This document shows positions 9,501-64,000 of a stretch of 64,000 bases of DNA, in pieces. The notes under the pieces were generated by a model. That model saw only the letters and a program-made list of their open reading frames with translations, was not told where the DNA came from and made no database searches. The translations under genes and the position numbers were made by a program. Each line of letters starts with the position of its first letter. Positions within the stretch are counted from its first letter, which is position 1. Origin of the DNA: Nymphaea colorata (taxonomy: Eukaryota > Streptophyta > Magnoliopsida > Nymphaeales > Nymphaeaceae); NCBI RefSeq assembly GCF_008831285.2, contig NC_045139.1:36057706-36121705 (forward strand), in the 5' to 3' direction.

Positions 9501-10979
9501 TGCACCTTTTTGGGCACTTACTGGGCTTCCGCTTTTTGTTTGCAACCACTTGTCTCTTGTCAGTTCTAACTGTGGTTGTGTAACTCTGTAACTTTGGCTC
9601 CAGTTTTTCCATCACCGTAGATCCAGAAAGACTCCAGCTACGACGAACAGGATTACAATGTGATTTTGGATAAGCTGGGCCAGGCAAAGCACTGTACTCA
9701 AAACTTAAAGAAGAAGTTTTACCAGCAGGATCCTCACAAATCAACTCCCGAATACCATCTTTTACCTGCATCGAAATTACCAAATTGGCTAATGATGTCA
9801 ATTTTATGGCTCCACATGATGACAGGCAAGCATCCTAAAAAGTCCATGTTGATCCAGGCCCTTTGGTGTATTCCCAACTTCATAATCATAGGAATAAGTA
9901 TGGGATAAAAGGGATGGTACGAAAATTGAAAACCAGGTGATCTGCACAGTATTTCATGTTAGACATTGGACAGCCTAACCTCAAAATTAGCACCATCAAT
10001 CTATAACATAAGATTTCACATGTTTGGCCTCTTTGTTCTAAGTTCACCAGTAATACCGTAGCCAAATCTGCATATTGGATCTGGTATGTTCATCAATAAC
10101 CCCCAACTACTGGGGTCCAGTTGTGGACGAATATCCAAACCACTTCGTAGAAGGTTTAGATACTATGATCTTATATTTGGAAGGCATAAAACCTACTATA
10201 AATCAAGATATGAACTCAGCCGAATTGGGAGAACTTCCATGTCATGATAGCTAATCAGTAATCCATAAACCTCCGTTATATAACATAATAAAATGAAGAA
10301 AGAAAATCCAGCTATACATTGTATACAATCTGCACAAATACATAATCATTTTGTTCAAGACCAAAACAATATTATACCTTATCTCCATTACAGTCTGGGT
10401 AATCTGTGGCATTTTCTTTTCTTGAAGTGGTGCATTCTCCAATGACTTTTTGAGAATTAACTGCAAAAAAGAAAACAGAACAATTAAATGGATTGTAATC
10501 ATCCTAACGTGGCTTTACCACGAAAAATCTAAATCGTACCATGTTTCTTTTCTTCTAAAGACCGAATGCCGATTTTCATGTCTGACCTTCGTGTCCCATG
10601 AAGAGGGAAACCATCAGAACCATTGAGTATATCTTCCGGTTTTGATGGTTTTAGATTTTTCTTGAACAACTTCTTGCAGGAACCTGAAAACTTCTCAACA
10701 AAACCTATGGTAGGAGCCGGGAGGAGCTTATTGCGTCGTTTTCCCTGCACCGACTTGGAAAATGAATTGAACTAGTAGAATTGAGCAAATACAGCGTAAT
10801 TAATTATATTCATTGAACCGACGCCAAATATGAATTTTGACCACTTAGAATGTGAAAAGAACCTTGAAAAATGAAGCTAAAAAATTGGTTAGCCGATACT
10901 TTGTTTTCTTCTTGCATGACCCTTGAATTTCTTGACTTGGGAAATTAACAGAAGAGACTCCATCTTTCTTGCGCCCCAT
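6526..10979 (-). CDS. Uncharacterised plant protein, basic N-terminus, about 620 aa
   Basis: Seven coding exons with matching phases: 10979-10863, 10744-10540, 10460-10378, 9765-8632, 6996-6962, 6875-6647 and a tentative last exon 6585-6526. The start is an ATG giving MGRKKDG. The first 110 residues are strongly basic (KKKTKYR, KKLFKKNLKPSK), and a second basic block (ANKKRKPSKCPKR) lies in the large exon, so nuclear localisation is an inference. The large exon (378 codons) is Ser- and Asn-rich, holds a short acidic block INLYVDLNGDSSDW, and ends with QQQPQP. Exon 6 contains STRRRSMRF. I recognise no catalytic domain or named family. All borders are GT-AG. If the last intron is not removed, the frame instead stops at 6641, two codons beyond exon 6. 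Intron 4 (6997-8631) contains a TTG-rich repeat. It is most likely a real gene of unknown function. Confidence 0.75.
7783..7880. repeat. TTG-rich triplet repeat
   Basis: About 100 bases of TTA/TTG triplets, in which a 15-base unit (TTG repeated, then TCA) recurs several times. It lies in an intron of the minus-strand gene 6526-10979. The open frame through it (poly-Cys on the plus strand) is a by-product of the repeat. Confidence 0.9.
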
Positions 10980-13733: not shown

Positions 13734-14228
13734 ATGGCGATCTCCCTCACCGCCCGTAGGCTCTCCTCCAGAATATTCTCTCCCCGTCCCGCCTCCTTCC
13801 TTCTCTCCAAATCCTCCTCCTCCTCGTCGGCGTTACCGTCGCCTTCGGTGTCGCCGTCACGGAAGGTCGCCGATCGGATAGTGAAGATCTTCGCGGTCGA
13901 CCCAGAGGGGAAAAAGCACGAGGTGCTGGGGCTCTCTGGGCAGAGCCTCCTGAAGGCGCTCACCAACTTCGGCCTCATCGATCCGGAGTCGCACGGCCAC
14001 GAGGAGCTCGGCGCGTGCTCGGCCGAGTGCGAGGTGCACATTGCCCAGGAGTGGTTCGATCGTCTTCCCTCGGCCAGCTACGACGAGGCTTACACGCTGC
14101 GCAGGAACGCCCGGCGCGGCATCCTCAGCACGCACGCCAGGCTCGGCTGCCAGGTGATACTCGACCAAGGCCTTGAAGGCATGGTCGTCGCCGTCCCCGA
14201 GCCCAAGCCGTGGAAAACCGGTATCTGA
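13734..14228 (+). CDS. C1-FDX: Mitochondrial ferredoxin-like protein of complex I (C1-FDX type)
   Basis: A single exon encodes 164 aa. Residues 1-43 are rich in Ser, Arg and Ala with no acidic residue (MAISLTARRLSSRIF...), typical of a mitochondrial presequence. Residues 44-155 follow the adrenodoxin-type 2Fe-2S fold: VKIFAVDPEGKKHEVLGLSGQ, then ELGACSAECEVHIAQEW, then RLGCQV. Only three cysteines are present (C95, C99, C139). The position of the first cluster ligand is His89, and the central pair is spaced CxxxC rather than CxxC, so a normal 2Fe-2S cluster is unlikely. This matches the known plant protein that forms the ferredoxin bridge between the two arms of mitochondrial complex I, with the conserved tail VVAVPEPKPW. 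The ORF is GC-rich compared with its AT-rich flanks. Family assignment is firm; the complex I role is from family knowledge. Confidence 0.92.
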   Translation: MAISLTARRLSSRIFSPRPASFLLSKSSSSSSALPSPSVSPSRKVADRIVKIFAVDPEGKKHEVLGLSGQSLLKALTNFGLIDPESHGHEELGACSAECEVHIAQEWFDRLPSASYDEAYTLRRNARRGILSTHARLGCQVILDQGLEGMVVAVPEPKPWKTGI

Positions 14229-28972: not shown

Positions 28973-29590
28973 ATGTTAACCATCTTCCACATCTACAATG
29001 GCGTTTTCCTTCTTTGCCAGCTTCTTAACTCCTTTCTGCGCCGATTCGGCCCGAAGAGTTGCTCCTCTTGGCTTCCCCTCTCGTGGTTCCGTCCCCCGAG
29101 CACCCCGGAGCCTCATATGTCGGAGACGCCGTCGCAGATGGACCCCGCGGAGCTGCGCCGGGTGTTCCAGATGTTCGACCGGAACGGCGACGGCCGGATC
29201 ACGAAGCGGGAGCTGAGCGACTCCCTGGAGAACCTCGGCATCTTCATCCCCGAGAAGGACCTGGTGGCGATGATCGAGAAGATAGACGTGAACGGGGACG
29301 GGTGCGTGGACATCGACGAGTTCGGGGTGCTGTACCAGACGATCATGGACGAGAAGGACGAGGAGGAGGACATGAGGGAGGCGTTCAATGTGTTCGACCA
29401 GAACGGGGATGGCTTCATAACGGTGGAGGAGCTGCGGTCGGTGTTGTCGTCGTTGGGGTTGAAACAGGGGAGGACGGTGGAGGATTGCAAGAAGATGATC
29501 AGGAAGGTGGACGCCGACGGCGACGGGATGGTGAACTACAAGGAGTTTAAACAGATGATGAAGGGTGGCGGTTTTGCTGCATTGACTTGA
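28973..29590 (+). CDS. Calmodulin-like protein, four EF hands, N-terminal membrane anchor
   Basis: A single exon encodes 205 aa. Residues 1-28 form a hydrophobic stretch followed by basic residues ([15 protein letters not shown]), which in relatives such as Arabidopsis CML5 acts as a signal anchor to endomembranes. Residues 58-200 contain four EF hands with loops at 69-80, 105-116, 142-153 and 180-191. Each begins with Asp and ends with Glu, and all have the DxNGDG or DxDGDG core, so all four should bind calcium. The linker between hands 2 and 3 is acidic (DEKDEEED). The product is a calcium sensor that binds target proteins rather than an enzyme. The gene is strongly GC-rich compared with its flanks, and a (GA)n tract lies in the 3' UTR. 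An internal ATG at residue 49 or 56 would give a soluble form, and which start is used is not certain. The CML5-like subgroup is inferred from the N-terminal anchor. Confidence 0.93.
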
Positions 29591-31455: not shown

Positions 31456-31499
31456 CTCCATTCTCCATACAAGGCCTTCACGAAGTTGAGTGATAAAAA
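29657..31499. other. Intergenic region between the CML and phosphoesterase genes
   Basis: AT-rich with no supported exon. A perfect (CT)n tract at about 31424-31452 lies 70 bp upstream of the phosphoesterase start codon, in its probable 5' UTR or core promoter. The part 31210-31420 is richer in G and C and probably belongs to that promoter. Confidence 0.5.
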
Positions 31500-31517
31500 A
31501 TGGCGAGGCGTCGTTGA
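31500..31517 (+). promoter_or_regulatory. Micro-uORF before the metallophosphoesterase start
   Basis: A five-codon upstream ORF (MARRR, stop TGA) starts in the context AAAAATGGC, which has A at -3 and G at +4. It ends two bases before the main ATG at 31520. The main ATG has a weaker context (TGATTATGGG). Initiation at the main start would need leaky scanning or short-range reinitiation. Confidence 0.6.
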
Positions 31518-31519
31518 TT

Positions 31520-34500
31520 ATGGGTTCTCCTAAGTTGGTGTCATTGCAAGGGCGCGACGTTGGTGTGGCATGCCGTTGCAGGACCAGCAGAATGCAGGCC
31601 TTCTTCCTAATTGTTTCGCTTTTCCTTCATCTTCTTGCTGCTCAATCTGATGTCCTTTCTGAGCGACAATCCGTCGGAGGAACACCCAATTCGAGAAGCG
31701 TCGTGGAGGTTCGAGGAGACCCAAGCGGAGTCGTGTGGGTTGTTCAGCTTTCCGATCTCCACTTCAGCGTCCACCACCCAGAAAGAGCCGCGGATTTCTC
31801 GAGAATAGTTGGTCCTGCTCTTGCCTCGATCAACCCTTCTCTAGTTCTGATAACCGGCGATCTCACAGGTCTCGCTCTCTCTCTCTCTGATATTGTCTTT
31901 TTGGTCCCGGCGAATGCTAATGGTTCCTTTGACGGCTGTGTCAACCTCGTGCACGGCCGGACGCCTATTGGGTAGTGATAGCTTTTTCCTTTTCTGTTAT
32001 TCTCATTTCACTTTTTCTTTCTGACTGGGCGCGGTACATAATCTCAGAGGTGCACATCTTTTGAACCTGCAAAATGTGATGCCTTTTCTGTTATTAATTT
32101 TTAATCTCACAAAAGCAAACACCGCGTACGTCCCATCCGTGGGGTTGAGGTAGTGCTACTGCATCTAGATTCTTGTCTTCATGGTAAATTTCATCACTTA
32201 GGCTTCAGTATGATGATATTAATTATGTCAAGATTACTGATAACTCCCGATGGTTTTAGCTAGTTCATATTTGTGGCGTTATGGAGACCGTGGAGTGTAA
32301 GATCCTTCTTCTCTAATGCTTAGCGAGTTTAATTACATCCTGGGGACTGTCACAGTCATTTCCATGCTCCTGTACCTCTGCAACTGGCACTTATGTGAGA
32401 TAGTAAATTTTACATAGATACAGATGTTTGTTCATATGATGATTAAATAAGACACCAATAGGAATGTTCTAAAAGAAAGCTAGAGGAATCACCACCTTGT
32501 CTCTCCCTGTGAGCTCCATGAGATATTTATCAATTTTCTTCAGTTGAGGGAGGGAGAAGAGAAGGGAAAAACTGAATGAATGTGGGAAACTGTTCAAATA
32601 GCAAGTTTATTTTTCAGACACCGATGGCAAAAATGTTGCATTGGAACGACTTGAGATTGGTTTCAATTCGTTTATACTGAAACAAGGTTTATTTTTAGTT
32701 TATTTTTTCCAGATAATAATAACAGGCTTTCCGTTTCATTGCACAGATGGAAAAAGCAAAGATCTGTTGACCATGAAACAAGATGAGAGAGAGTGGGTGG
32801 AGTATGATAAGGTGATGAATGAAGTTATAACAAATAGTGGACTTCCAAGAGAGATCTTCTATGATTTGAGAGGGAATCATGACAATTTTGGTGTACCTAT
32901 ACTTGGTGGAAAGTACGACTTCTTTAATAAATATAGCATCAGTGCAGGCCTAAATCGAAGTGCAAAAGTTCAAAGTGTTACTCTGCAGGTGCGTAGCAGC
33001 GTAGCATGCTTGAAAGTTAATGTGTGCAAATCTGTTATACTGTAATTTTCCATTGTCAGAAACTTCTTGCCTTCCTCTCATAGTACCAAGAAAACTCTGG
33101 CAATTTCTTTTGCAAAAATTTTGAAAGCAGTTTTCTCTTTGAATCTATGTGTCTTTGCAATTTGCTAATTACTTGAGCAATTATTGGTGTGGTACACTGT
33201 GATTCTGATAATTGACCTTTTGTTGCTGTTTGAATCAAGGAAAAATTTGTGCTAATAATTTTTACACTTTATATTGACAAAAAATTTATGTTTTGCTGAT
33301 GGCCTGTTTACAGCAATAATGTTGTCAATTCTGTCCACATAAAAATTCAACTGCAGTGTGTCATTTATAGCACCATTTTCTTGACTGAAATCTCTTTTGT
33401 TGTCGATACTAGGTACTAATTTCATCTCTCTCTCTTGGATTTGATGAAGTGTGGAATGCTTGCTTCTACTTGAATCTTCAAGCTTACTTTCTCTGCATGC
33501 ATTCTATGTCTTGTAGATGCCTTAACAGTTCAATACAATGAAATGCCATGGTAGACACTTGATAATACTTCATCAACATAGTCCAAGTCAAAAAATCAAA
33601 CCAGTGTTGAACATGGTCAATGCTATATCATTAACTATGGTTCTTTATGTGATCTTGAATGCTGAGTTTGTATTTACTTTACATTCTATAATTCTTCAAG
33701 GTTGTCATGACAATTCAGGAAATGATTGGCTTCAAATGAACTCTAGTCTCTAGTTCTAAGATTTTAGTTTTTGTTCATTTTTTTAAGACTTTAAGTTATT
33801 GAATACATATAAACAGAATCATCTGATTTGATTGATTATACTGATTTTGGGGTAGGAATGAGCTGACCGCAGCATGAAGAGGGGGTTAATTCAATATGAC
33901 TTGGCCTATCAATGCTGAGCCACTATTACTAGGAACACTTGTCCTTGTTCTCACGGCTACTGGCAAATGGATATGCATGACTAATGCATATGCATTTTAT
34001 GCATCTTCAAGATTAAAAATTTAAGTGCTTGTGTAATTTTGAAATTTCATGGTATCTTGCATGCAACCTTTCCTTTTTTGCATTTTTTTTCACTTTTTGT
34101 CCATTCTTGCATCTATAGTTGCTCCAGTCATGTTGCTGAAATTATTCAATAACAAAAAGTATGGCCTGTCTAGTCTTGCTAAAGCTAGGATTTTACTATT
34201 TGTTGCCTCTAGTGAGTTAATTGTGAATACGTAAACAATTTTAATGTTCATTACCAATGTAAGCTTGTGTACTATCTTCACACAGAGCAGTGGATGGAAG
34301 CATTTATTTGTTGGGATTGATAGCACAATGGATGTTGGTATTCGTGGCCCAACAAATGTTTTTGGCCATCCAACAGACCAGCTACTAGCAGATATTGAGG
34401 CAGAACTTTCACAATGGGATGCCAAATCCACAAATTCAGTGAATAAGATTGCATTTGGCCACTTCCCTCTCTCATTCTTGGCAGCTACAGAGTCCAAGAA

Positions 34501-36556
34501 GACACTCAAGGACATTTTCCTGAAGCATTCCTTGTTAGTTTACCTTTGTGGCCATTTGCATACTAAGTTTGGGAAGAATTTGAAGCGGAACCATCGACAA
34601 GCAGATGTGCTAGATAAATATTTTCAATTTAATGGTCAGCGACAAACACCAGAAGATTTAGTGGATGGGAATTGTTCCAGTAAATCTGTAAAAGCAAAAG
34701 AATTTTGGGAATGGGAAATGGGAGACTGGAGAAAGAATAGAATGATGCGCATCTTAGCCATCGACCAAGGCCATATTTCTTTTGTTGATATTGATTACAA
34801 ATTTGAGGCCAAGAAAACAATTGTTTTGCCTACATTTCCACTTGATTCACGGTCCATGCAGAAAATTTCCATGTTCCATGACTATAATTGCCAAACCATT
34901 GATATCTCATCCTATGAGACTATAAGAGCATTAGTATTTTCAGAGGTTGATATCGTGATGGTTGTTGTCAAAATTTATGATTCTAGGTCTGGAGAACTCA
35001 ATTTGATAATGGCAGAAAAGATGAAAAAGGTTACCAACATGAAGTCAAGAGGGAGCCTGTATACCATTCCATGGAATTGGAAGGCATTTGCAGACCCATC
35101 ACCAGTTCGATATTGGTTGCAAATCGAAGCAATTGATTCCTTAGGTAGTTCTAGTTTTAGCCAATTAAAGCCATTCTCCATAAATGGCCGAGCTGCTAAA
35201 CTCAGTTGGAAATGGAAGGAGTTTTGGGTCATGGGTTGTTCACATGACTCCTTATATTATCCTTTATTCTGGTCTATCACTGGATTTTTATTGGCCCTGC
35301 TTCTCTTTCCAAGAGTCCTTTCCACATGTGCAAAGGAGAATCACAAATCTCAGGTCTTTGAACGAACCTTCTCTGTTGGGAAGATCTTGAGATGCCTTGT
35401 GAATTATGCGCTCTGTATTTTGCTAGAGCTTTCGAGGATCATATCCTTGTGGCTTGCCTTGTTAATTTATTTAGTGTATCTGATATATTTTCCTTGGTTC
35501 CGTGGGAGAGCTTTCTCGGATGACAGCATCTCTGGATACATGAGTCGCACTGGTTGGACTGTCAAGATTCCAGGAACAACAACAAAGCAGTCATATATTG
35601 GTGTACCTGATGTGGTAGCTATTGTTTTACCACACCTTTGCTTTGTGCTGTTGCCAACAGTTTTAGTTGCATCTGCTTTGGCTGCAGAAAAGGTGGCATA
35701 CCATGTCCATTCTCTATCTTTATATGGAAAGAAAAATGAAGATGATAAATCAGATCAAACGAGCCATCACAGCAACCATCATGTAGGACAGGGTACCTCA
35801 AAAATGCCTCAGTTGGGATTGTTAGATAAAAATACTACTTTTTGCAGTTTCTTTTGCTATGCCCGTAGAAGATGGATCAGGAAGATTTTACTTGCAGTGT
35901 GCTGCATAATTTTATGGTGGCATCATAAGGTGAATGTTATTGCTGTTATGCTTTCTTCTATACCCTTTTTGTCTTCTTTATAATTTATGACAAAACCAAT
36001 CGGGTCTACCTGATCCTGGTAGGTAGGATGTTAATTTCCTGAATATCCGTAATTGCTGAGTGCCTTGAGATTTCAAAAGGCATCCTCAAAACAGTTTGCA
36101 TGAAAGAAATTGAATCTACGCATTTATCTGCAAAGACATAGGAGTACTTCTGGAACTTCTTAGCAGATTGGTTGCATCAATTTTCTGGTCTTCCAAAAGC
36201 CTTAATTTTAAAAATATTTAGAGGGTCTTAAATTGAAGACCCTGGATCAAGTCTGAGCCCTTTCATTCTGTTTCCGGTCCCATGGTTCTTGCCCTTGTAA
36301 GACTTGGTGTTCAGGGCTCACCCTTGTAAGTGACAAATGTTTCCCATGATTTCTTTTTCATTGGGATTTCGTGTGCATTTTTAATGCTTGGTATTTTTTG
36401 TTATGTGAACTCTTGCTTATGTGCAACTTCATTTTGCAGTACTGCAACGTTATCATCAAAGCCTATGACTCAAATCCTTTTCTGGATGCTGCAATTTATT
36501 GCTGGTCTGTGCCACTTTTGCTGGCCTTCGCTGTTTACAGGACCTCAGGAGTTTAG
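31520..36556 (+). CDS. Metallophosphoesterase, TMEM62 type, with membrane C-terminus
   Basis: Four exons with matching phases (31520-31868, 32747-32988, 34286-35929, 36440-36556) give 783 aa. A hydrophobic stretch at residues 25-42 (MQAFFLIVSLFLHLLAA) is a signal peptide or anchor. The calcineurin-like metal-binding motifs appear in order: SDLH (78-81), GDLTD (113-117, split by intron 1), GNHDN (159-163), GHF (255-257) and GHLH (286-289). They should bind two metal ions. A middle beta-rich region follows. The C-terminal third has about five hydrophobic segments, for example GFLLALLLF, ISLWLALLIYLVYLIYF and LLPTVLVASALAA, with the last in exon 4. This layout is that of plant putative metallophosphoesterases related to animal TMEM62, whose substrate is unknown. 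The catalytic domain would sit in the lumen if the N-terminus is a cleaved signal. Introns 1 and 2 are about 0.9 and 1.3 kb and show no further exon. Confidence 0.9.
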
Positions 36557-48872: not shown

Positions 48873-50018
48873 ATGGGTTGTGTGTCTTCCAAATTTGCAA
48901 GAAGAGAGATCGAGGAAGAAAAAGATGGTGGTAGCGCGAACCACGTCGTCTTCCTCACGTCCAGCACGTATGGCGTCCTCAATCTGGACAGAGGACCAGA
49001 GGAAGCGCGAAGCCCGTTCACCACCATCTCCAAATTTCGTGGCATCTCTTCCGTGTTCAGCCCCAACCGCTCCGAGCCGGAGATCATCAATGCTCGAGAG
49101 CTAATGGCAGGTCTAGAGGACGATGCGCCTCAGTCTTCCCCTGTAAATAACAAATCCAGGTCCAACCATGGCGTTTTGGCTGCTGCCCATCATGATTCAA
49201 AGGATACCAACAAGAAGAAGCAGCCTACGATGCCGAGAAAGTATCCGGCGGATAAGGAGAACGTGCAGTCTCCGGGATCAGAGAAGCAGAGATCGCCGCT
49301 TGGTGTAAGGCAAGTGCTGAGGCCTTCCAATTTGATGGAAAATCAGGGCCCCCTTTCTAAGCCAGGTACGAAGAAGGTCACCGTGGACAAGAATCCTAAA
49401 GAGAGTGGAAGATTTTCGATGTCGTCCAGGCGGTACTGCAATCCGCTTTTCGACCCCGAACTTTTGGCCTCCTTTGAGAACGAATTGTCCTTGGAGGAAG
49501 AAGAGAGGAAAAGGTCCCCTGCACATCTGTTGGGTTCATTCAAGGAGAAGTGTCCGCCTGGTGGTGAAAGCTGTGTAGTGCTCTACACGACGACTCTGCG
49601 CGGTATCAGAAAGACGTTCGATGATTGCAACAAGGTGAGGTCCGCCATCGAAGAATACGAGGTTCGGATAATCGAGCGGGACATCTCGATGGACTCTGGG
49701 TTTAAGGAAGAGCTGAGGGAGTTGATGGGGCCAAAGGAAGCAAAAGTACCGATGGTGTTCATAAAAGGAAGGTGCATTGGTGGCGTGGAAGAAGTGACGA
49801 AACTTCAGGAGAATGGGAAGTTGGAGTTGCTCGTTACTGGGCTGCCGAGGGCCACTAGCTGCGGAAATGGCAGAGGATGTGTTGGTTGTGGAGGGGTAAG
49901 GTTTGTTGTCTGCATGGATTGCAACGGAAGCAGAAAGATTTTGGATGAGAACAAAGAAGTTGCAAAATGTGGGGAATGTAATGAGAATGGATTGATCTTG
50001 TGTCCCATTTGCAGTTGA
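48873..50018 (+). CDS. Glutaredoxin-like protein with N-myristoylation motif and CxxC-rich tail
   Basis: A single exon encodes 381 aa, starting MGCVSSKF. Gly2 with Ser6 fits N-myristoylation and Cys3 fits palmitoylation, so membrane attachment is likely. Residues 40-215 are low-complexity and charged. Residues 234-322 are a glutaredoxin-like domain (CVVLYTTTLRGIRKTFDDC, KVPMVFIKGRCIGG). The usual CPYC/CxxC active site is replaced by TTLRG, so classical thiol oxidoreductase activity is doubtful. Residues 336-380 carry four CxxC pairs (CVGC, CMDC, CGEC, CPIC), probably binding zinc. This architecture is the plant At5g39865/At3g28850 glutaredoxin-family type, whose molecular role is not settled. 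An in-frame ATG at 48516 would add 119 residues of poor quality. The 48873 start is chosen because MGCVSS is conserved in such proteins. Confidence 0.9.
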   Translation: MGCVSSKFARREIEEEKDGGSANHVVFLTSSTYGVLNLDRGPEEARSPFTTISKFRGISSVFSPNRSEPEIINARELMAGLEDDAPQSSPVNNKSRSNHGVLAAAHHDSKDTNKKKQPTMPRKYPADKENVQSPGSEKQRSPLGVRQVLRPSNLMENQGPLSKPGTKKVTVDKNPKESGRFSMSSRRYCNPLFDPELLASFENELSLEEEERKRSPAHLLGSFKEKCPPGGESCVVLYTTTLRGIRKTFDDCNKVRSAIEEYEVRIIERDISMDSGFKEELRELMGPKEAKVPMVFIKGRCIGGVEEVTKLQENGKLELLVTGLPRATSCGNGRGCVGCGGVRFVVCMDCNGSRKILDENKEVAKCGECNENGLILCPICS

Positions 50019-52000
50019 TCATGAATTATGGTAACTTAGAATTTTGCAGCAACGGGCTTGTTGTCGGGATGTGAGTGTCTATTTTGGTATGCTACTTATC
50101 TGGTACTTGTTTTCTGTCACTATTAAAATTGCCACCACGATTTTTCTTAGTCCTTTTTCTTTTGTCTGTGTATTCTGTTCTGTAATCGAAATGTAGAGAA
50201 AATGTTCTTTTTTTCTCTAGAAACGAATACATAAAATTATTTGCTCATCTTGTTTCTTTAGATGCAATACTCACATGCTACTGCACTTATTGTTGTTTTT
50301 ACAAAGAGAAACAACAAAAGCTCTCCTGTGCTGAACATGGTAGTTGGTTTCAACTATTTTCTTTGTCAAGTCACTCTGTTCCTGACAGTCGAATCTCACT
50401 GTTCTGCTCCTTCCATCTGATTCTAGTTTTGGCCACTGTTTACTGTAATGCACACAATGTGGGCATGTCTTTGCATACAGCAGTGAGACAGATGGATTCT
50501 GTTGTCCAATATCAAAGCCTGTCCACCGGTTAGGTGCCGCCGGATTCCGGCCAGGTGTTAATCTGGAATCTGCATGCATCTGAACCTGGAATTCAGTAGC
50601 ACAGACACAAACAGGATGCAAAAGCATCTGAAAAAGGAAATGCCTATAAGGAAAGTCTGATTTGGCAATAGAACAGAAAACTTCAAGCTACGTTTCCTGC
50701 GTAAAAGATCTGCAAGTTTCAGCCATGGACTTAGCGCTTTCCTAAATGAAACTAAGAATCAGTTTAGCTGTTATTAAAAATTCAGTAGCACAGACACAAA
50801 AAAGATCCAAATTCATTCTGAAAAAGGAAATTGCCTATAAGGAAAGTCTGATCTGCCAATAGAACAGAAAAGCTCAAGCCTAGGGTTTGCAGCATAAAAT
50901 GTCTGCTAGTTTCAGCCATGGACTAAACGCTTTCCTAAATGAAACTAAGAATCAATTTAGCTGTTATTAAGGTTAAGTAGAAGTAGAACAAACGTGCAAC
51001 GCTAGAATGAACCTTCCCAAGGGGAAGTCATTGGAGCCGCAACGTTGTGAAGTTACTTTCTGTTGAAGTTCACGCCGATGCTGTTCTTCTTTTCCTCTTG
51101 AACTTGCCATCCACTGCAATTTTTAACTTGACCCCGTGTTCACCATCATAAACTGGAAGATCCAATAAAGGAAATCTCCTGAACTTGCCATCAAACTGCA
51201 GTTTTTAACTTAACCCATGTTCACCAACAGAAGCTTCAACATACCCAGTAAGCAACTCAATTACCTTCCAGTTAACTCTTCGTTTTTAATACTTAGGAAA
51301 AAGAGAGATTACATATTACAATTCACCCAATAAAGGCTATACTTTCCATGAAAACTGTCAATGAAGGAGGCAAGATTCCATATTATGGCCATAAGAGAGG
51401 CCGGCGTCAAAAGTTGGGCCCTCCCCATTGACATGCACGCCTGCTGTGCTGCATTTGAATAGAAGGGCGAGGCCGGCTTTCATGTCCGCCCCTACAGGCT
51501 ATAACATATAACCTGCTTTGTCAATGAAGGGTCTAAAGCAAACCTTTTTGTTGATGTAATGAGGATGATCCTGTGTTACGGGACAACAGGACACTGTCCC
51601 TCTACGATGCGTGCTCTTTCTTTTTACAACGACATTCTTGTTCTTAATCTTAAGACCAAGACTCCTCAATACCTTCATGACAACACTTTTTAAGATTTTA
51701 ACTAAGGACGAAGACACGCTATCTAATCAAACCAGTTGTGCAACCCAAAGAAAGAGAGAGTTTTGATCCTCGAACCTTACTCAGTTTGAGGTAGTGAAGG
51801 GAAGTGCTCACTGCTTAATCGAAATGCGATAAAAACGTTAGGCAGTGATATGAAAACTTTGAAACTCAAGTTGTTTTTCGTAATATTTTAAAATATGAAT
51901 ATGGGGTTGCAAAATTTTCTTTTAAAAAATAAGGGCGGAAAATTGAAAATGGAAAAACCTACAGAAGTTCCAGAACCCTCCCTCCCCGAATTTCTCTCCT
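50019..52000. other. Intergenic region with tandem duplications
   Basis: It contains the 3' UTR of the glutaredoxin-like gene, then a 189-bp tandem duplication (50591-50779 and 50780-50970) and a smaller one (51098-51148 and 51177-51228, sharing TGAACTTGCCATC and TTTTTAACTT). No gene is supported. The minus-strand frame at 50271-50627 has no recognisable domain. Confidence 0.55.
50591..50970. repeat. 189-bp tandem duplication
   Basis: Two copies start ATTCAGTAGCACAGACACAAA and end TTAGCTGTTATTAA, and share GCCTATAAGGAAAGTCTGAT, TTTCAGCCATGGACT and GCTTTCCTAAATGAAACTAA. Substitutions and a few indels separate them. Confidence 0.85.
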
Positions 52001-52138
52001 CCTCTCTGGCTCTGTCTCTGTGTGTCGTGGTCTGCGAACTCTGGGCTGCCTCTCTCTTCCGCCGTAACGCTAACTCGCAGTTCGCTCGCTGGAGCTTCTT
52101 TGGGTCGTGGCCACCGTCGGAAGCGTATTCTCGTTCTG
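51960..52138 (+). other. Candidate non-coding first exon (5' UTR) of the small gene at 53065
   Basis: A CT- and GC-rich block unlike its AT-rich flanks, ending at a TCTG/GTAATC donor at 52138. It would join, across an intron, to the leader of the 118-residue gene starting at 53065. The link rests on position and texture only. Confidence 0.35.
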
Positions 52139-53064
52139 GTAATCTCTCTCTCTCTCTGTGCCGCCGGGAAATTGTACTGGGTTCTTCTCTTCTTTTCATC
52201 CGCCGGAATCGTCATTCTTTATTTATCTCTCTCTATACCCTTTTTTTTTAATCTCATATCATCCGAAGGACCTTCAACGAATTCTACGACTGTTACTATC
52301 GATGGTATTAGTCCTCCAAAGGAAGAACATTCCGAAGCCGGACATTTCCTTGGATAATGGCGGTGGGGGTGGAATCCTGCTTGTAATACGAGTTGTTCGC
52401 CATGACCTATCAGTTCCATTTTGGAGCATAAAAGAGTCTTGTAATTGAGCAAGGAAAAAACGTTGTTTTGAGACCTGGATTTTAGATATTCTTTTTAGCA
52501 GAAGAGAGAAAATCATGAGTTTTAATAGGGAAAACAGGACAACGCCTTGACAAAGAGAAGAAAACACAAGAAAGAGAGTATAAGCTAAGACTTACCGTCG
52601 TTCTGCCATCAATATGAGGATGTGTTCCAGTTGAAGATGGTGGTTTCTCAGAATCTCAGGAGCATGTTTCTGCAGTTTTATTGGTGGCTGTTCATTAGCA
52701 TGACATCGCACCTGTCATAGATATGAAGAACATTATCATAGATATCAAGAGCAAGTTGGTTGGAACCACATGAGCTATGCCTCTGGCCTTAGAGCAAACT
52801 CTGGTTAGCGCAGAGACCGACAATCTTGAAACTAATTTGCTACCATCTAGATGACAATGCTTAAAAAATTGTTTGTTACCGTAGAATTGCTCCTAGAAAT
52901 TACAAGTAAATTCAGCTTTTTTGCTAGATTGGGACCTCGTGTAGGAGATTGTCGAGGTGCTTGGTCTCTCGTGGGTCTGTCTCATTCGCGATAGGTGGTT
53001 CAGTTGCAGCAGGGATCATGCAAAGCAACAGTAATTGGAGACTTGAGGGGTAGTTTTGGAGAGA

Positions 53065-53929
53065 ATGACTTCCTCATTGGCAAAAAAGAGTTCTGCAGAG
53101 CCAAATGCTAAGCCGCAGAAACTTCATACTGAAGTACATGTTTCATTTTCTTTAACTCGTTGCTGTTAGGACCCTTCAGCCTTACCTGAACCACATAGAA
53201 CCCTATGCGGAATGTGAGTTCTCTATTTTATAGTTTATATTCATTATCAAATGTAGATCTCCTTGTCACATGGAAACAATAACTAAAATTGTTTGAATTT
53301 AGCAATAATTTTCTTCAGCGTTAGACCCAACCAAAATGTGTTTTATCCTCTTACGCTTCACAACCCATAATGTTCAGAGAAATTGCACCAGAATGGGCAA
53401 CTAAGACTAGCGTTGATGATTATCTCTTGCTTGCTGGCATGCGTGCATGCAGAAACATACAAGCACATGAATATGGTATAAGCCTTGCAAAGAGTGTTAC
53501 ACTGCAATTTGTAATTCTTGGTGCTGGACTGCTGGTAGGTAATGAAAGAATTATCGGACATAAAGTCTTGTATTTAAGCATTTTGCAATGTTGTTTGCCT
53601 ATCTTTTGCCACATCAGAAAAAAAAATTACATTGGTTGAATTTACCTTGTTTATTTTTTTCTCAGTTATTTTGGTAAGTTCTGATTTCTTGAAAAATTCC
53701 TGAATTTATTTAAAAAATCGAAGAAATAAGAATATTATTTAATCACAGTCGATATGGTTCAATATATATTGACTGATATCTTCCGGCCTACTGTATCGTT
53801 TATAATTCTGATATGATGTGTAATTTAATTTTACGACAATAGGCATCGCATTCGTCTCTTCATGATCCTGCTCCTTACAAGCGAAAGAAGATGGAAATGA
53901 CTTTGACATTTCCTAATTATCATGGTTAA
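53065..53929 (+). CDS. Small plant protein, 118 aa, one hydrophobic segment, function unknown
   Basis: Four short exons have fully compatible phases: 53065-53133 (ATG, 23 codons), 53170-53213, 53378-53534 and 53843-53929 (stop TAA). All introns are GT-AG, and the first is only 36 bp, unusually short and a reason for caution. The product starts MTSSLAKKSSAEPNAKPQKL. It then has DPSALPEPHRTLCG, a PEWATKTSVDDYLLLAGMR block, RNIQAHEYGISLAKS, a hydrophobic stretch TLQFVILGAGLLASHSS, and a basic end DPAPYKRKKMEMTL. The composition is clearly protein-like, and the frame stays open across every junction. I do not recognise the family. A small membrane-associated protein, perhaps organellar, is inferred from the single hydrophobic segment next to basic residues. 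It lies 1.1 kb upstream of ZPR1 on the same strand. Confidence 0.65.
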
Positions 53930-54314
53930 TGCTTTTATGATATTCTGGGTGGATATAGATTTTGCAGACAATGATGGAGATTGGAGTCTAATCTCCAACA
54001 AATTTGATGGAAGATTTATTGTTTCATCTCTGATAAAATTTGATGGATCAATGTTTGCAAATCATGAAAGGTCCTACATTGAATGATCTGTTGGAGTTCT
54101 AAATCTACCCTTGACAATTTAGATAACTTGTTCTTAGGTCTTATCTTGTCAAATGTTTGAGATACTCTTGAGAGTCATGTTATTCTGTTGCTTCTGAGCC
54201 AGATATACCGTAACACAAGAAACAAAAAGAGTTAGTATAGCCACTCCTTTTTGTCCATAGAGTATCAGACTTTCAGATACAACAGGATATTATTGTTGGA
54301 AACATAGAGTCTCA

Positions 54315-54316
<2 letters not shown>

Positions 54317-54393
<77 letters not shown>
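54317..54393. repeat. (CA)n(GA)n compound microsatellite
   Basis: About 28 bases of CA alternation join about 48 bases of GA alternation, some 640 bp upstream of the ZPR1 start codon. Confidence 0.97.
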
Positions 54394-55033: not shown

Positions 55034-58000
55034 ATGGGTGGAGGAGGAAGGGGAGAGCAGGAAGCCATTGTTGATGTTGGTAGTGCTGCTGAGGCCATTG
55101 CCTCTGGTGAGGAAACTGACACCCCCTTGCACCAGATTGAGAGCCTCTGCATGCGTTGTGGGGAAAATGTAAGGTCACTCTCCTTCTTTGCTGGTGCTTT
55201 TCTCTCTAGAAAAACCGAGAGCACTCAATACTTTTTTGGAGATATGATATTGACTGTAATTTGGTGTGGTTTTGCTGATCAATGATTAAGTTAATACTTA
55301 ACTGTTTTACTGGATGAAATTTGTGACTTTTTCTCCTTAGTTTGATCCTAGTTATGCTAAAACTGATTATTTTAATGCTTTATGTGAGCTGCGCTGAAAT
55401 TTAAATTAGTGAGATGAAGCTGCTGAACCGCAAGGTCCTTGAAGCCATGCTTCTCAGTAAACAAAACTTATGAGGTTTTCATGCCAAAATTAAAGATCCT
55501 GTTTTAGAAATATGTTACCAATTGCAAAAAACTGTATCAGCAACATCTGTTAATGGTTTCACATGTTGAAAGTTGAAAATACGGCTGCTCCTGTCTTACC
55601 AAGTTCTTGGTGAACTTTCTAATACCAATTCTTCCAGTCCACTCTTGAATTTGGCACTAAAATCTTGATATGATTTTGGTCTTTTACAGGGGATAACCAG
55701 GATTCTGCTTACCCGAATTCCTCATTTTAGAGAGGTAAAAATACTTCCCATTGCGTAGTTGCTCAGCTCATTTTGATGTCTAATGATAATAGTACCTTTA
55801 ATCCCTTTTCTGTGCTGTTATTATTCGTTACTCTAGACTATGTTTCATTCAGATGATGAGGCTTCATTTTCATTCAGTGTCCATGAGATGGTGACCAATG
55901 TTTTCAAAAGTTATGAAAATTTTTTGGTATTATCAACTTTCAGAGCCAGCTGATAATATTGGCAAAATAAGCTATGTTAAATGTTACAGAAATATATGCC
56001 ACACCTTGGGATGCTTTCGTATCATTTTTTAAAATCTCTTGAAAAACCCTTTTTATATATTTTAACTATATGCTTACAGTTTTATTCTTGCTTTTATATT
56101 TAAATAACTTTTTTGATTTTATCTTTTTGCAAGGAGAATGCTAAAAAGTAAAAACCATGTCACATCTTTAAGAGGTTGATATTCCTCTATCAAACCTAAA
56201 ACTGGGTTCTGAAATTCAGTGTCACAGGTATCGCGATATTTTCAAAAATGTCGTGATTTAAACGTTAAAAAAGGGAAAACGAAAAAAATGCCAAAAAATT
56301 GTGATATTTGAAAATATCGGCAAAAAATATTTATCGCGATAAAATCATGTTTCTTTTTTCACTTAATTTCTGTCCTGTTTATATGTTCTTGTGCACGGTT
56401 TTAATTCATAAAAATTGCACATGATGATTCTTTTGCTAAAGAAGGGTATAACGTGTTAACAGTAAAGAAACAAAGGGAAATTTTGAACCGAAATTTCTTT
56501 TTAATGGCAAAAAGAGTGCTTAACTCTAACTTTTAGTGAATAGGGTTTACTAACTTTACCTTTCGTGTGAGACGTGAGAGTGGAAGCTATGTCTTTCAGA
56601 TGCACCTAATCTTTTCCCCTGTGTTTACCTCTTTAGTGAGGGTTTGAGAAGTGAGGAAGCTGTGTTTGGCATGTGAGGGTTTGAGGAGTGATGAGTGATA
56701 GCCTGCGTCGAAGTTGAGGGTTGATGGAAACCCAGAAGAACATCCCATCCGACGCTTCAGCCATTAGATAACCTGTGTTTTTGGTATTTATTAGAGTGCC
56801 AGTTTCCATTTTCTAATTTTCACTTATTGCTTATCTACTTCGTTTTTTGAGGTTTTCATATTAGTTTCTCATTTATTTTATTTTTACCTAATTTTGGCCT
56901 TTTTTAAAAATAGACTAGATTTTCCTGATTATTTTTCCAAAAAAACAGCTTTGCTAAATAATACCCAAGAAAATCCTTGCCGATAAAAACGCAAGAACAA
57001 TATTTGTGACAATGGTTTTGATGCAGGTCTAGATGCTGTGCTGACTCTTCAAATTTAATAAGCAACCACAGCAAGTGCAGTCAACTGCACTTGTTCACTT
57101 GGGAGTTGGGACTTGACCTTTACTCAAGCTTGAGCATTGTCACTTGAGTCATAAGCTTAAAGATCATTACTTCATCTCACAAACAGTTTAAACCTTATGC
57201 TTTTGATATGTAGCATTGCTAAACGTGACTTTGTTTTTGATATGAAACTGCATTTCATTTCTCTGGCTCTGCAATCCAAACCATTGAAGTTCCTAGTACA
57301 TTGTGGTTTAACATCTCATTTGAAAGCATTTTATAGTTTAAAACTTTAAATCTGTGCTTGTAGTCTGGTGGAACATGTGACATAATTTTTCAATTATTTT
57401 AAATTTATATCTGGCTACCAGCTAAGCATTTGGATATGTCTCTAACTGCAGGTTGTTTTGATGGCCTTCGAATGTGCAAACTGTAATGAGAGGTAGTGTG
57501 ATTTTAAAGAAGGAACTTTTTTGACTTTGAATAGTTTGAAATTTTGTTTCTTTTAAGAGGATTTAAAGTTCAATGTATGTTGTCTCCATCATTCTCACAA
57601 GTATTAGGGATAATTTCTAAAATTTTAACGTTACATGATAATATAACCAAAACAAGTTATACAAAAATGAGAATTTATGTGATATTTTTAAAATATCACC
57701 AAAAGTAAAATATGGTGATAATTTTCACATGGTTTGTCTGAAAAACATTTTTATATGTTTTAGACTTTTTTATTTACCTTAATAATTATTTTGAAGTTTG
57801 ATCAATGTTTTTATGTGAAGATTAGTAGAAAACACATAACTTTAATTTTTTCTTAATATTTTTTTTATTTGTTTGAATTCCCCATATTTTCCTGTGAGGA
57901 AGAACTTTTGTGCTTAACTCCGTAACCCAAGATTTCCCCTAGATAAACAACCTTTCCGACTAATGCTCGAAAGAAACCTCATAGATAAAGCCTTAGAATG

Positions 58001-61000
58001 ATATTTATTACAATGTCTCCATATGTAAAGTTGATATACAACTATGCCATAACTTTTATTCGCTGAGTTTTTCTAGGAACAGTGAAGTTCAGTTTGCTGG
58101 TGTCATCCAGCCCCAAGGGTGCCGCTATCAATTGAAGGTTGCGGCAGGTGAACCGAAGGTATGCAAATGGTGCAGACTGGAACAAAACATTGATGAAATA
58201 AGCTTTAGAAGGTTTTAGCGAGAACTTAGAATTAGGCTAAGGGAAATTGCTCTCTTTCTCTCTCTCTCTCTGGCACAGACACACACATACATGGGGGGGA
58301 GAGAGAGAGGTTCAGCTACCTATGGTCCTATTCTTCCAGAATCTCGTTGAGCACTACCTCTTCTTCCAGAACCTTGGTGAGCACTCTGGGATCCATGTAC
58401 ATCATGGAGGAGGCACCTTTATAGAATGGGGTGGCAAATGAATCTACTGCCTCGTCTTTACGAGTTATGTTGCTCTAAAATATCTTGATTTGACTGTCTC
58501 ATTTAGACAATGTAATTTTTTTTTTAGTGAAACTTTTTGAAATTTGTGGTAAAAAAGTTATTCTACAAGTCTTGGTTGATCTCGTTGATCCAATGCACTT
58601 TGATCTGATGTGCAATTTGTTGCAGATATTAGATCGTCAGGTGGTGAAATCAGATTCTGCATCTATCAGGGTATGGAAATTTATGTTAATATAAAATGGT
58701 CATTTTTGCAAAGTGATATTTTAGTCAGATGGTCCAGGTAGTTGTTTCTATCTTCTATGTTTTCAATTTCTTTTTCTTTTTTTTTATCAAGCAATCCTAA
58801 GGAGTACTTTGGAACTGCTTTATACATTAAGGTTCCTTTTTTTCTTTTGAGACAAGAGGCTGCTAAATCATTACTTTGTATTTTATTAATATCTAGTATA
58901 TTTACATTGAGTGCAAAGATCTAAAACACAGGACAAATTCGACTGGGTGTTAAGTGTGCTAGTTTAGGCCTTCTTTGGGTGATAGGGATCAAAATATGGT
59001 TTTTGGGGAGTTTTGGGCAAATTAAGGTTTGCCAAGAACTTGACTTCTTGAGTGTTAGCATACTCGGTGAAGATTGAAAGTATGAAAATAAAAAACATCG
59101 ACCATTTTCTGACAACCTGCTGATCAAATTATTGACGGCTAAAGTTGCCACATGGAGCCAACTTTAGCCCATTTATTTTCTAACTGGCTAGTTGCTCAAC
59201 TGACTTATGGTAAAGATAAAAGAAAATTTGAAAAGCTAGTGCTCATTTGTCTGCCACACGCTGGTTGAGAAATGACCCATTGTGGTCTCTTATGTGGGTG
59301 ATTGTGTTGGTTGTGTGGCTGGGAAGCAGTTGAGCATTTAAAGTAGGCAAGAATGAGAAAAGAACATTAAAACAAAATTGTCATGACTCACCATCCACAG
59401 TCTGGGGATGGTTCGGTTGGGGTTCCCAGATTTGAGCAAACTAAGCTGGCCCATTTTCCGGCCAGTTGGCTGGAGGAAAATTATTGTTTCTTGAAATTTT
59501 TAGAATAAAAAACAAAGGTCTACTAAACTGACTAGTGGTTAGCTAGTTGCTAGAAAATGGTCAGACAGACTGCTCATCAAGAGTGGTGCTAATCTGATGG
59601 TTTCTGGCCATCTGCTAGTCAAGAATAGATAGCAATAGCTGAAAGAACCTCCTGTTAAAAAACAAGCTTTGATTTTGGGTGGGGTGAAGGGAGGTGCCTT
59701 CTTGTTGAGGATTATCTTTACTTGTATGGCGCTACTGGATTGCAGTGCAGAACATCCAAAGCAGATAACACTGTTCTAGGCAATAGTTCATCTGTGGGTG
59801 GAGTTGCTTGATCACTTGTCCCATATATTCCTGTCAAAGTGTCAAGGGAATCACATTCCAAAGCCTTTATTCTCTGTCAAACATACTTTAAAAGCAAGTG
59901 TAAATATTTAATGAGCTATGATTCTCGGTGAGCTGATGATTCATTTTTTAAATATTAGTGTTTAGATGACCTTCTCTGTCAAACATTACTTTAAAAGCAA
60001 TTGTAAATATTTAATGAGCTATGATTCTCGGTGAGCTGATGATTCGTTTTTAAATATTAGTGTTTAGATGACCATTAGGAAAACACAGGCTAACTGCAAG
60101 TATTTGTCGTAGATCTGATATTCCATTTCTAAAGCACTTGTTTGATCATCAGTAAAATATTCTGAAAAAGCATCTTTATGGTTTTTATGCTTTGAGAGAA
60201 AGGAAATGAGAAACTTGTCCAGAAATAAGTTACCTGAGAATAGGTACTCGACAGAATTGTTTGGAACCTTCAATTGAATCTCTTGGAAGGACATAGCACT
60301 GGAAAAAACCTGTTGGACTGTGTTTGAGATTACGTTTTGTGATTCTATGCACAAAACTGATACATTGACTTTGTTTGGAAACCATGGTTTCACGACGGAC
60401 TGCAATAGACTGCATTAGCTTGGGGTTCAGTCCCCTAATTGAATGCCAATCTGAAAAGCTGGATTTTGTGGAAACCATGTGGGATGGGCTGCATTAGCTT
60501 GGTGTCCATGATGTTAGTCTTCTGGAAACCATGTGGGATGGACTGCAATAGGCTGCATTAGCTTGGTGTCCATGATGAAATCCATGTCAGAGATGGAAGG
60601 CATATTCCAATGCTTGCCTATCAGTCTCAAGAGTGAAGACCATAGCTGTGGCATGTGGATTGATTGCAGTGTTGCCTTCAGTCAGATGAGGAACTAAAGA
60701 TGGCTTATTGATTTCTGTGTAAAATTAGTGATATATGAAGTCTATGAATCACTAAATTTTGGTTGTTGTATCTGATTTTATGGTGTATAATTTTGAACAT
60801 ACTTCATTAAGGGCATATTTGATTTAAAAAACTTTGTAATTCACCCTTTGATTACCCTTTCTTATTTTCTTTCTTCTTACATCTTATTGATATGTGTATC
60901 TTTTGTATCTGAAGTATATTCATTTCTTTGATTTGTTTGCTAAAGCATTCTTTTCTTATGTGCTTCTGAGTTAGTTGTTGTATGTCCTATGTGTGTGCAT

Positions 61001-61987: not shown

Positions 61988-62027
61988 ATTCTACGATTGG
62001 AGACTCTTAGAATTCTGAAAATGAGAT

Positions 62028-62035
62028 TATAAATA
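62028..62035 (+). promoter_or_regulatory. TATA box of the copia LTR
   Basis: TATAAATA (followed by G) lies just after the U3 repeat array and about 135 bases before the LTR end, the expected place for the U3/R promoter. Confidence 0.65.
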
Positions 62036-62088
62036 GAGGCCGTGCAAACCATTTTGGCTACGGCTTCTTCTCCTCAGTTTCTTCTTGT

Positions 62089-62120
<32 letters not shown>

Positions 62121-62171
62121 CTGCGTGAGTGCTGTTTTCGGGTTACAGATATTGGTGCTACATTTCTATCA

Positions 62172-62183
62172 TGGTATCAGAGC
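62172..62183 (+). other. Primer-binding site of the copia element
   Basis: TGGTATCAGAGC is complementary to the 3' region of plant initiator methionine tRNA, the primer used by most plant copia elements. It abuts the LTR end. Confidence 0.85.
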
Positions 62184-62391
62184 GCCAGGTTACGTTATCT
62201 CTACCAAACGAAATGCCCAAACAGGTCTGATCTGGTTAGAACTCTTTTCTCATCTTGTCTCTATCCTGAATTTACTTTTCTCTTGCGCAATTCTTGTTCC
62301 TTTTTCTTCTTGCTTACCAAGGACACATCTTGTTATATCGTGTCTTCTTTCCCTCTCATCTTCTACCTATATACCATTCCTTTCTGCTGTC

Positions 62392-63282
62392 ATGGAAAAC
62401 CTTTCGCATTCTGGCATGTCCTCAAGTTTTCTTCCTCACCTTATTACCGAAAAACTCAACCATGAGAATTATCTGATCTGGAAAAGGCAAATCATGCCTT
62501 TCATAAGAAGTCAAGGCCTCTTTGGACATCTCGATGGTTCAACAAAGGCTCCACCAATATCCGTCTTACAGGAAATAAAAAATGAGGCAGGAGAAGTTAT
62601 TGCTGTTCATGAAGACAACAATCCTGAACATGCTATGTGGATGAGACGTGATCAAAGTCTGGTTGCGTATATTTTGTCCACTTTATCTCAACAAGTGTTA
62701 CTTTCAGTTTCTGATGATTGTACTGCAGAAGAATTATGGGAAACCCTTGCTAATACCTTTTCCCAAATATCAGAAGCTCGAATTATGTACTTAAAGAAAG
62801 AATTTCAGAATTTGAGCAAAGGTTCAACGTCTATCATGGATTATTTGGGGCGTATTAAGGCCGTCGCAGACCAACTTGCTGCCTCAGGGAATAACATTTC
62901 TGATAAGGAAAATGTGCAGCAAACCTTGAATGGACTTGGGCATGATTATCATGCTTTTATTACAGCTCTTGAGGTCCTTCCTGTTCTGCCTTCCTTCAAC
63001 GAACTACAAGGTAAACTTCTCCAACATGAAATGAATATGAAAAGAGTCATTGAAAGGACTGATCAAGGGAACTCCCAAAATGTGTTGGCTATGAATGTAA
63101 AGTTTGGTAAGAGCCATGGGAACTCCAACCATGGTGGTCGTGGCATTCTACCAACACCACATAACCAAGGTATGTCTCCTTTGGATACTTCAAGAAAAAT
63201 ACCAATTTGTTTTCAGTGCAACAAGAAAGGACACATGAAGGCACAATGTTGGTTTAATCCTCAAAATAAAAACAAAGGGTAA
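62392..63282 (+). CDS. Copia gag protein
   Basis: 296 codons from the ATG at 62392 (product starting MENLSHSG) to a TAA. It contains the copia gag core (KLNHENYLIWKRQI..., the UBN2/retrotran_gag block, then LKKEFQNLSKGSTSIMDYL) and a CCHC zinc knuckle, CFQCNKKGHMKAQC, near the end. It packages element RNA into virus-like particles. The longer open frame back to 62125 crosses the leader and is not needed. The frame stops right after the zinc knuckle, whereas most plant copia elements continue into protease in the same frame. Confidence 0.88.
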   Translation: MENLSHSGMSSSFLPHLITEKLNHENYLIWKRQIMPFIRSQGLFGHLDGSTKAPPISVLQEIKNEAGEVIAVHEDNNPEHAMWMRRDQSLVAYILSTLSQQVLLSVSDDCTAEELWETLANTFSQISEARIMYLKKEFQNLSKGSTSIMDYLGRIKAVADQLAASGNNISDKENVQQTLNGLGHDYHAFITALEVLPVLPSFNELQGKLLQHEMNMKRVIERTDQGNSQNVLAMNVKFGKSHGNSNHGGRGILPTPHNQGMSPLDTSRKIPICFQCNKKGHMKAQCWFNPQNKNKG

Positions 63283-64000
63283 GACATGATTATAAACAAG
63301 GAGGACAAAGTTCTAAATCCACCGCTGAAGATATGCAACAGCTATTGATGGCCGCATTCTCAAAGGTGACTATAAAGCAAAATGAGCAGGGAGAATGGTT
63401 CTTGGATTCAGGTGCAGCTACCCATGTGACAGGAAATGCAGGTAAATTGACTAACTTATCCCCTCATTACGGTAGAAGTTGCATTATAACAGGTGATGGA
63501 AAATCTCATCCTATTACACATATTGGAAATGCACATATTCCATTGTCATCCTCGTCTCTATCACTGTCTAATGTTGTTCTTGCTCCCAATATCAAAAAGA
63601 ACATCATATCCATTTCTAAACTCATTGATGATACAAGCTCTTCTGTTGAATTCACACCTTCTTCTGTCTATGTCAAGGACCTCCAAACGAAGAAAATGTT
63701 CGCTAGAGGGGAGCGTCAAGGGAATATGTACGTCCTCAAGGAATGTCTACCCAAGGATTCATCCACTTTTGATATAGGATTGAAGACATTTTCTCTTTCT
63801 CATAATGCGTCATCAGTGCCAAGTTCTTGCCATTTTCAATCAAAAGTAAGGGGCCCTAACCAATTTTTGGAGTCTGATTTGTGGCATAGTCGGCTAGGAC
63901 ACTGTGGTCGACATTTCATTGAAAAACTTGTCACAGATAGTCTCATTCCAAGATCAAGTTTACCTCTTACTTCAAGTGTCAAAAAATGTTCAAGTTGTGG
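63283..64000 (+). CDS. Copia pol, protease and GAG-pre-integrase (partial, runs off the window)
   Basis: A second open frame, shifted -1 relative to gag, overlaps the gag end (it opens after a stop at 63267) and runs to the window edge without a stop. It contains the aspartic protease motif DSGAATHVTG at about 63405-63434. Further on is the GAG-pre-integrase block (LWHSRLGHCG, then CSSCG at the very edge), which leads into the integrase zinc finger. It has no ATG of its own near the gag stop, so expression would need frameshifting. Integrase core, reverse transcriptase and RNase H lie beyond the window. Confidence 0.82.

Follow-up and report, generated by a model that had tools for sequence, protein, structure and literature searches.

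A small protein-coding gene is probably present on the plus strand at about 51.96-54 kb of the window, with a core exon at 53378-53534 (or 53538). The most likely explanation is an ordinary small gene encoding a helical, probably single-pass membrane protein, the first exon of which had been mis-drawn in the earlier note. The product would contain about 70-120 residues, mostly in one long helix, with a more polar N-terminal part and then a hydrophobic stretch near the C-terminus. This stretch would anchor the product in the membrane as a single-pass protein, and the protein itself would probably be a small accessory or assembly subunit. Taken as a whole (gene, core exon, helical membrane product and accessory role), this explanation is favored with modest confidence. 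We infer that the gene is expressed and which exons are used at its two ends. If real, the gene adds one more small uncharacterised membrane protein in the genome of a probably early-diverging flowering plant.

Candidate core exon and the four-segment join

The window, i.e., the whole 64-kb stretch of Nymphaea colorata DNA that was analyzed, corresponds to C2:36057706-36121705 in a genome sequence of 783 contigs totaling 407,766,735 bases. The published genome is reported at 409 Mb, with 1,429 contigs and 804 scaffolds (PMC7015852). Within the window, the candidate locus lay between genes for a glutaredoxin-like protein and ZPR1. The neighbors were as follows:

29117..29587: calmodulin-like protein, with Pfam support
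31592..35983, plus strand: TMEM62-like gene; Pfam TMEM62_C and Ig_TMM62 on 34286-35929, earlier exons drawn by eye
48873..50015: glutaredoxin-like protein, with Pfam support
55034..58670, plus strand: ZPR1 zinc-finger gene, first exons; PF03367 at 83.6 bits from a partial join made by eye, GT-AG introns

Splice sites were scored using approximate plant matrices. The features of the locus, with these scores, were as follows:

51949..52302, plus strand: leader-like stretch, candidate 5' untranslated exon; ATG-free and C+T-rich, with a possible donor at 52139 (3.2)
53010..53049, plus strand: first coding exon of an alternative model, with its ATG at 53018, an acceptor at 53009 or 53012, and the donor at 53050
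53065..53133, plus strand: segment 1 (MTSSLAKKSS...), doubtful; frame confirmed, followed by a 36-nt intron with its donor at 53134 (-0.21)
53170..53213, plus strand: segment 2, possible exon; frame confirmed, acceptor at 53169 (0.68) and donor at 53214 (1.56)
53378..53534 (alternative end 53538), plus strand: segment 3, core exon (EIAPEWATKTSVDDYLLLAGMRACRNIQAHEYGISLAKSVTLQFVILGAGLL); open frame, acceptor at 53377 (1.82) and donor at 53535 (4.33)
53843..53929, plus strand: segment 4, doubtful terminal exon; frame to the stop confirmed, acceptor at 53842 (-0.57)

Segments 1 to 4 joined at GT-AG borders into 118 codons and a stop, exactly as the earlier note had calculated, with introns of 36, 164 and 308 nt. 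Segment translations likewise bore out its observation that segment 3 is the sole segment with a long open frame by itself. Its proposal of a small coding gene at this position was moderately supported by the segment 3 exon and the upstream leader-like stretch; the four-exon structure was not, given its 36-nt first intron, the scores of the first donor and last acceptor, and joining that was within chance. The four-exon model is probably wrong at the first exon and uncertain at the last, and a 118-residue product exactly as drawn is unlikely.

Between positions 52900 and 54000, the segment 3 donor ranked first among 58 GTs and the acceptor seventh among 61 AGs. The acceptor scored under all four acceptors of the ZPR1 gene, where reference sites ranged from 1.85 to 4.91 (four donors) and from 3.32 to 5.55 (four acceptors). 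Using the segment 3 scores as thresholds, 13 open stretches resembling exons, each 150-400 nt long, were found in the whole window on both strands. Ten of the 13 overlapped same-strand frames taken as coding; the other three were segment 3 and a nested pair on the minus strand (60234-60450). The set treated as coding includes, without a Pfam test, the frames at 62011-64000 (retroelement-like), 8626-9834 (minus strand, long), 31490-31975, and 32602-33045. Relaxing the thresholds gave 22, 38, and 67 stretches, of which 16, 21, and 43, respectively, lay in frames taken as coding. A per-frame count with slightly different length limits gave nine exon-like stretches on the plus strand and five on the minus strand. 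Since the thresholds were taken from segment 3 itself, roughly one such cluster is expected by chance in each window, and the support is moderate, not strong. At that strength, segment 3 is a probable exon and the main support for a coding gene.

The 36-nt first intron, flagged in the earlier note as the weakest point of the model, is shorter than the verified Arabidopsis minimum of 59 bp and has a donor scoring below zero. Of 30 Arabidopsis introns that had been predicted at 31-59 bp and were put to the test, two could be verified, each 59 bp long (PMC6161759). By this length (at least 59 bp), introns 2 and 3 are long enough and intron 1 is too short. If intron 1 were retained, an in-frame stop would lie immediately ahead of segment 2. 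A 36-nt intron in a plant gene is best read as the sign of a mis-drawn model.

Ends of the candidate gene

Plant 5' leaders are often rich in C and T, as is the ATG-free stretch at 51949-52302. This stretch was the second longest ATG-free gap among the 1431 ATGs of the plus strand; the longest sat within the coding-like frame 13734-14181, and the fourth longest stopped exactly at the ZPR1 start codon (55034). Base composition contributes to the gap, because on the minus strand, too, the longest gap of this kind overlapped 51949-52302.

The 5' end was modeled from an assumed transcript start at 51975; each model had either one or two upstream introns and began translation at its first ATG. Under this first-ATG rule 22 models reached segment 3 in frame, and the leader-like stretch could be linked to segment 3 in frame using introns no shorter than 60 nt. 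None of the 22 contained the 36-nt intron, though models with it were tried. The top model (51975-52138 / 53010-53049 / 53378-53538 / 53843-) used the ATG at 53018 and had normal introns and a 71-residue product. Among 150 shuffles of the upstream region, 11 matched the score of the top model, and the median shuffle (over half) gave no model at all. The alternative 5' model is suggestive only. Upstream ATG and donor pairs that lead into segment 2 across introns of 60 nt or more numbered 28, and none was compelling.

At the 3' end of segment 3, two donors lay four bases apart, at 53535 and 53539 (4.33 vs. 2.38). Eight acceptors between 53665 and 54285 scored above a low bar, and all 16 donor and acceptor combinations ran to a stop, which leaves the 3' end uncertain. 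The best of the eight, at 53967 (4.69), was missing from the model as first drawn, which used 53842 instead. The hydrophobic stretch ascribed to the 118-residue product was present but borderline, with a best 19-residue mean of 1.70. Donor 53539 with acceptor 53842 gave a clearer membrane-spanning C-terminus, with a best 19-residue mean of 2.36.

The predicted product and possible relatives

For a 55-residue query, made up of segment 3 and the three residues ahead of it, AlphaFold2 without an alignment predicted one helix at residues 8-54 (pLDDT 77.8, pTM 0.38). By the standards of single-sequence predictions, this helix has moderate confidence. A Foldseek search of the segment 3 model against the PDB gave no matches at E up to 10, and neither did a PDB sequence search with three joins.

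A DNA search of the plant's own genome with 53065-53929 (865 nt) gave no match besides the locus itself, and thus nothing to suggest that it is a repeat or a copy of a transposon. A protein search of the same genome, in which the best candidates were scored, gave five matches: three were the locus and the other two had E values of 2.19 and 2.42, so that no paralogue was detected. Pfam-A contained no family for the 118-residue join at E up to 10 and none above cutoff for the 98-residue join or segment 3; in NCBIfam no family matched. Two Pfam candidates were taken as noise: Ntox27, at 11.6 bits with the 98-residue join and 13.2 bits with segment 3 (cutoff 24), and NTase_sub_bind, at 12.5 bits with segment 3 (cutoff 31.8). 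Segment 3 had no relative in collections of viral contigs, prokaryote genomes, and plasmids, where part of the searches reach close relatives only. The plant's own genome was the only plant genome searched, and the missing relatives therefore say little about orthologues.

In size, in its one long predicted helix, and in its hydrophobic stretch near the C-terminus, the candidate resembles small single-pass or tail-anchored plant membrane proteins, a class that includes accessory subunits and assembly factors. It differs from this class in having no match to solved chains and no Pfam family above cutoff. HIG1-domain proteins are small, with a hydrophobic C-terminal part and two hydrophobic stretches. 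The candidate is likewise small with a hydrophobic C-terminal part, and there is a faint look-alike around its hydrophobic stretch, but it has one such stretch where HIG1 proteins have two. Pfam gave no support for a HIG1 identity: the 118-residue join matched none of its families at E up to 10, and neither the 98-residue join nor segment 3 had a HIG family at E up to 1.

Competing explanations and surrounding sequence

A lesser though serious possibility is chance. The locus would then be intergenic DNA, or transcribed but non-coding, and would contain a stretch poor in stops whose splice-like borders allow it to be joined to its neighbors in many ways. The earlier note had held that its phase matches were hard to get by chance, a claim that shuffling contradicted. 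In the chain test, sequences of 865 nt were searched for ATG-to-stop chains of at least 118 amino acids with at most three GT-AG introns. Such chains arose in 28 of 40 dinucleotide shuffles with a minimum intron of 30 nt and in 14 of 40 with a minimum of 60 nt. With a loose splice-consensus filter they arose in one of 40 shuffles (minimum 30 nt) and four of 40 (minimum 60 nt), and filtered chains of this length were found in 12 of 50 window tiles on both strands, a set that includes real genes. In the real 865 bases the longest chains were 178 and 176 amino acids unfiltered and 145 amino acids filtered, all exceeding 118. Since shuffles often give chains of at least 118 amino acids, phase matching over 865 nt is weak evidence. 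The main use of this locus is one of caution, as chance often produces phase-matched GT-AG joins across a few hundred bases.

Codon usage was neutral, neither for nor against coding, in what was a weak test (AUC 0.70). Codon log-odds, trained on the 1,814 codons of long frames in the window, gave the joined frame +2.4 bits over 118 codons, and the frame as drawn was the best of three in each segment when stops in the other frames were penalised. With stops ignored, the join scored +0.02 bits per codon and segment 3 -0.065, and the drawn frame topped the three frames for segment 1 only. The segment 3 score fell in the overlap of the two distributions: 25 of the 61 held-out true pieces scored no higher than segment 3, and 59 of the 157 null pieces scored no lower. 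The neutral codon score is consistent with a chance origin, as are the lack of relatives in the collections searched, the many interchangeable 5' and 3' ends, and the 11 of 150 shuffled upstream regions that equaled the real one. Against a chance origin, segment 3 was one of three such stretches outside frames taken as coding in 64 kb on both strands, and a leader-like sequence lies upstream.

The gene as first drawn, with four coding exons, a 36-nt intron 1 and 118 residues, is a special case within the preferred explanation and is improbable. Its phases match exactly, a stop is reached, and the would-be intron 1 is T-rich, but the two Arabidopsis introns verified among the 30 tested in the 31-59 bp class are both of 59 bp (PMC6161759), the donor at 53134 and the acceptor at 53842 score under the whole ranges of the ZPR1 sites, and the first-ATG rule yielded no model with this intron. 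An equally improbable reading is a decayed gene, with segment 3 as the leftover exon and the outer exons degraded, hence the poor outer splice sites. The good middle donor between weak outer sites would fit such decay, as would the absence of a detected second copy in the plant's own genome; the segment 3 frame, however, contains no stop, and alternative models offer acceptable upstream sites. Least probable by far is a small membrane protein of the water-lily lineage without relatives outside Nymphaeales and with an authentic 36-nt intron far under the Arabidopsis minimum. The ordinary small gene with a core exon at segment 3 and a mis-drawn first exon remains the preferred explanation.

An Rfam scan of the window gave no matches at the gathering threshold. 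A perfect compound microsatellite, (AC)n-(AG)n, was found at 54317-54392. The plus-strand frame 13734-14228 was ferredoxin-like and resembles the plant complex I bridge ferredoxin; a Pfam scan of 13734-14213 gave no family at E values up to 1. The plus-strand frames at 62011-64000 run on towards the window end and resemble the gag of a Copia-type retrotransposon, with a CCHC zinc knuckle.

Codon training on 20 neighboring stretches was dropped, as several of their longest frames hit N or looked organellar or retroelement-like by eye. Two very long open frames were located near the contig end, at about 36.245-36.263 Mb of C2 (262-9999 and 1-8199 of successive stretches). The printed start of the second frame was N, and N probably accounts for the first as well. 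The readable start of the first frame resembles an organellar NADH dehydrogenase subunit, suggesting an insertion of organelle DNA.
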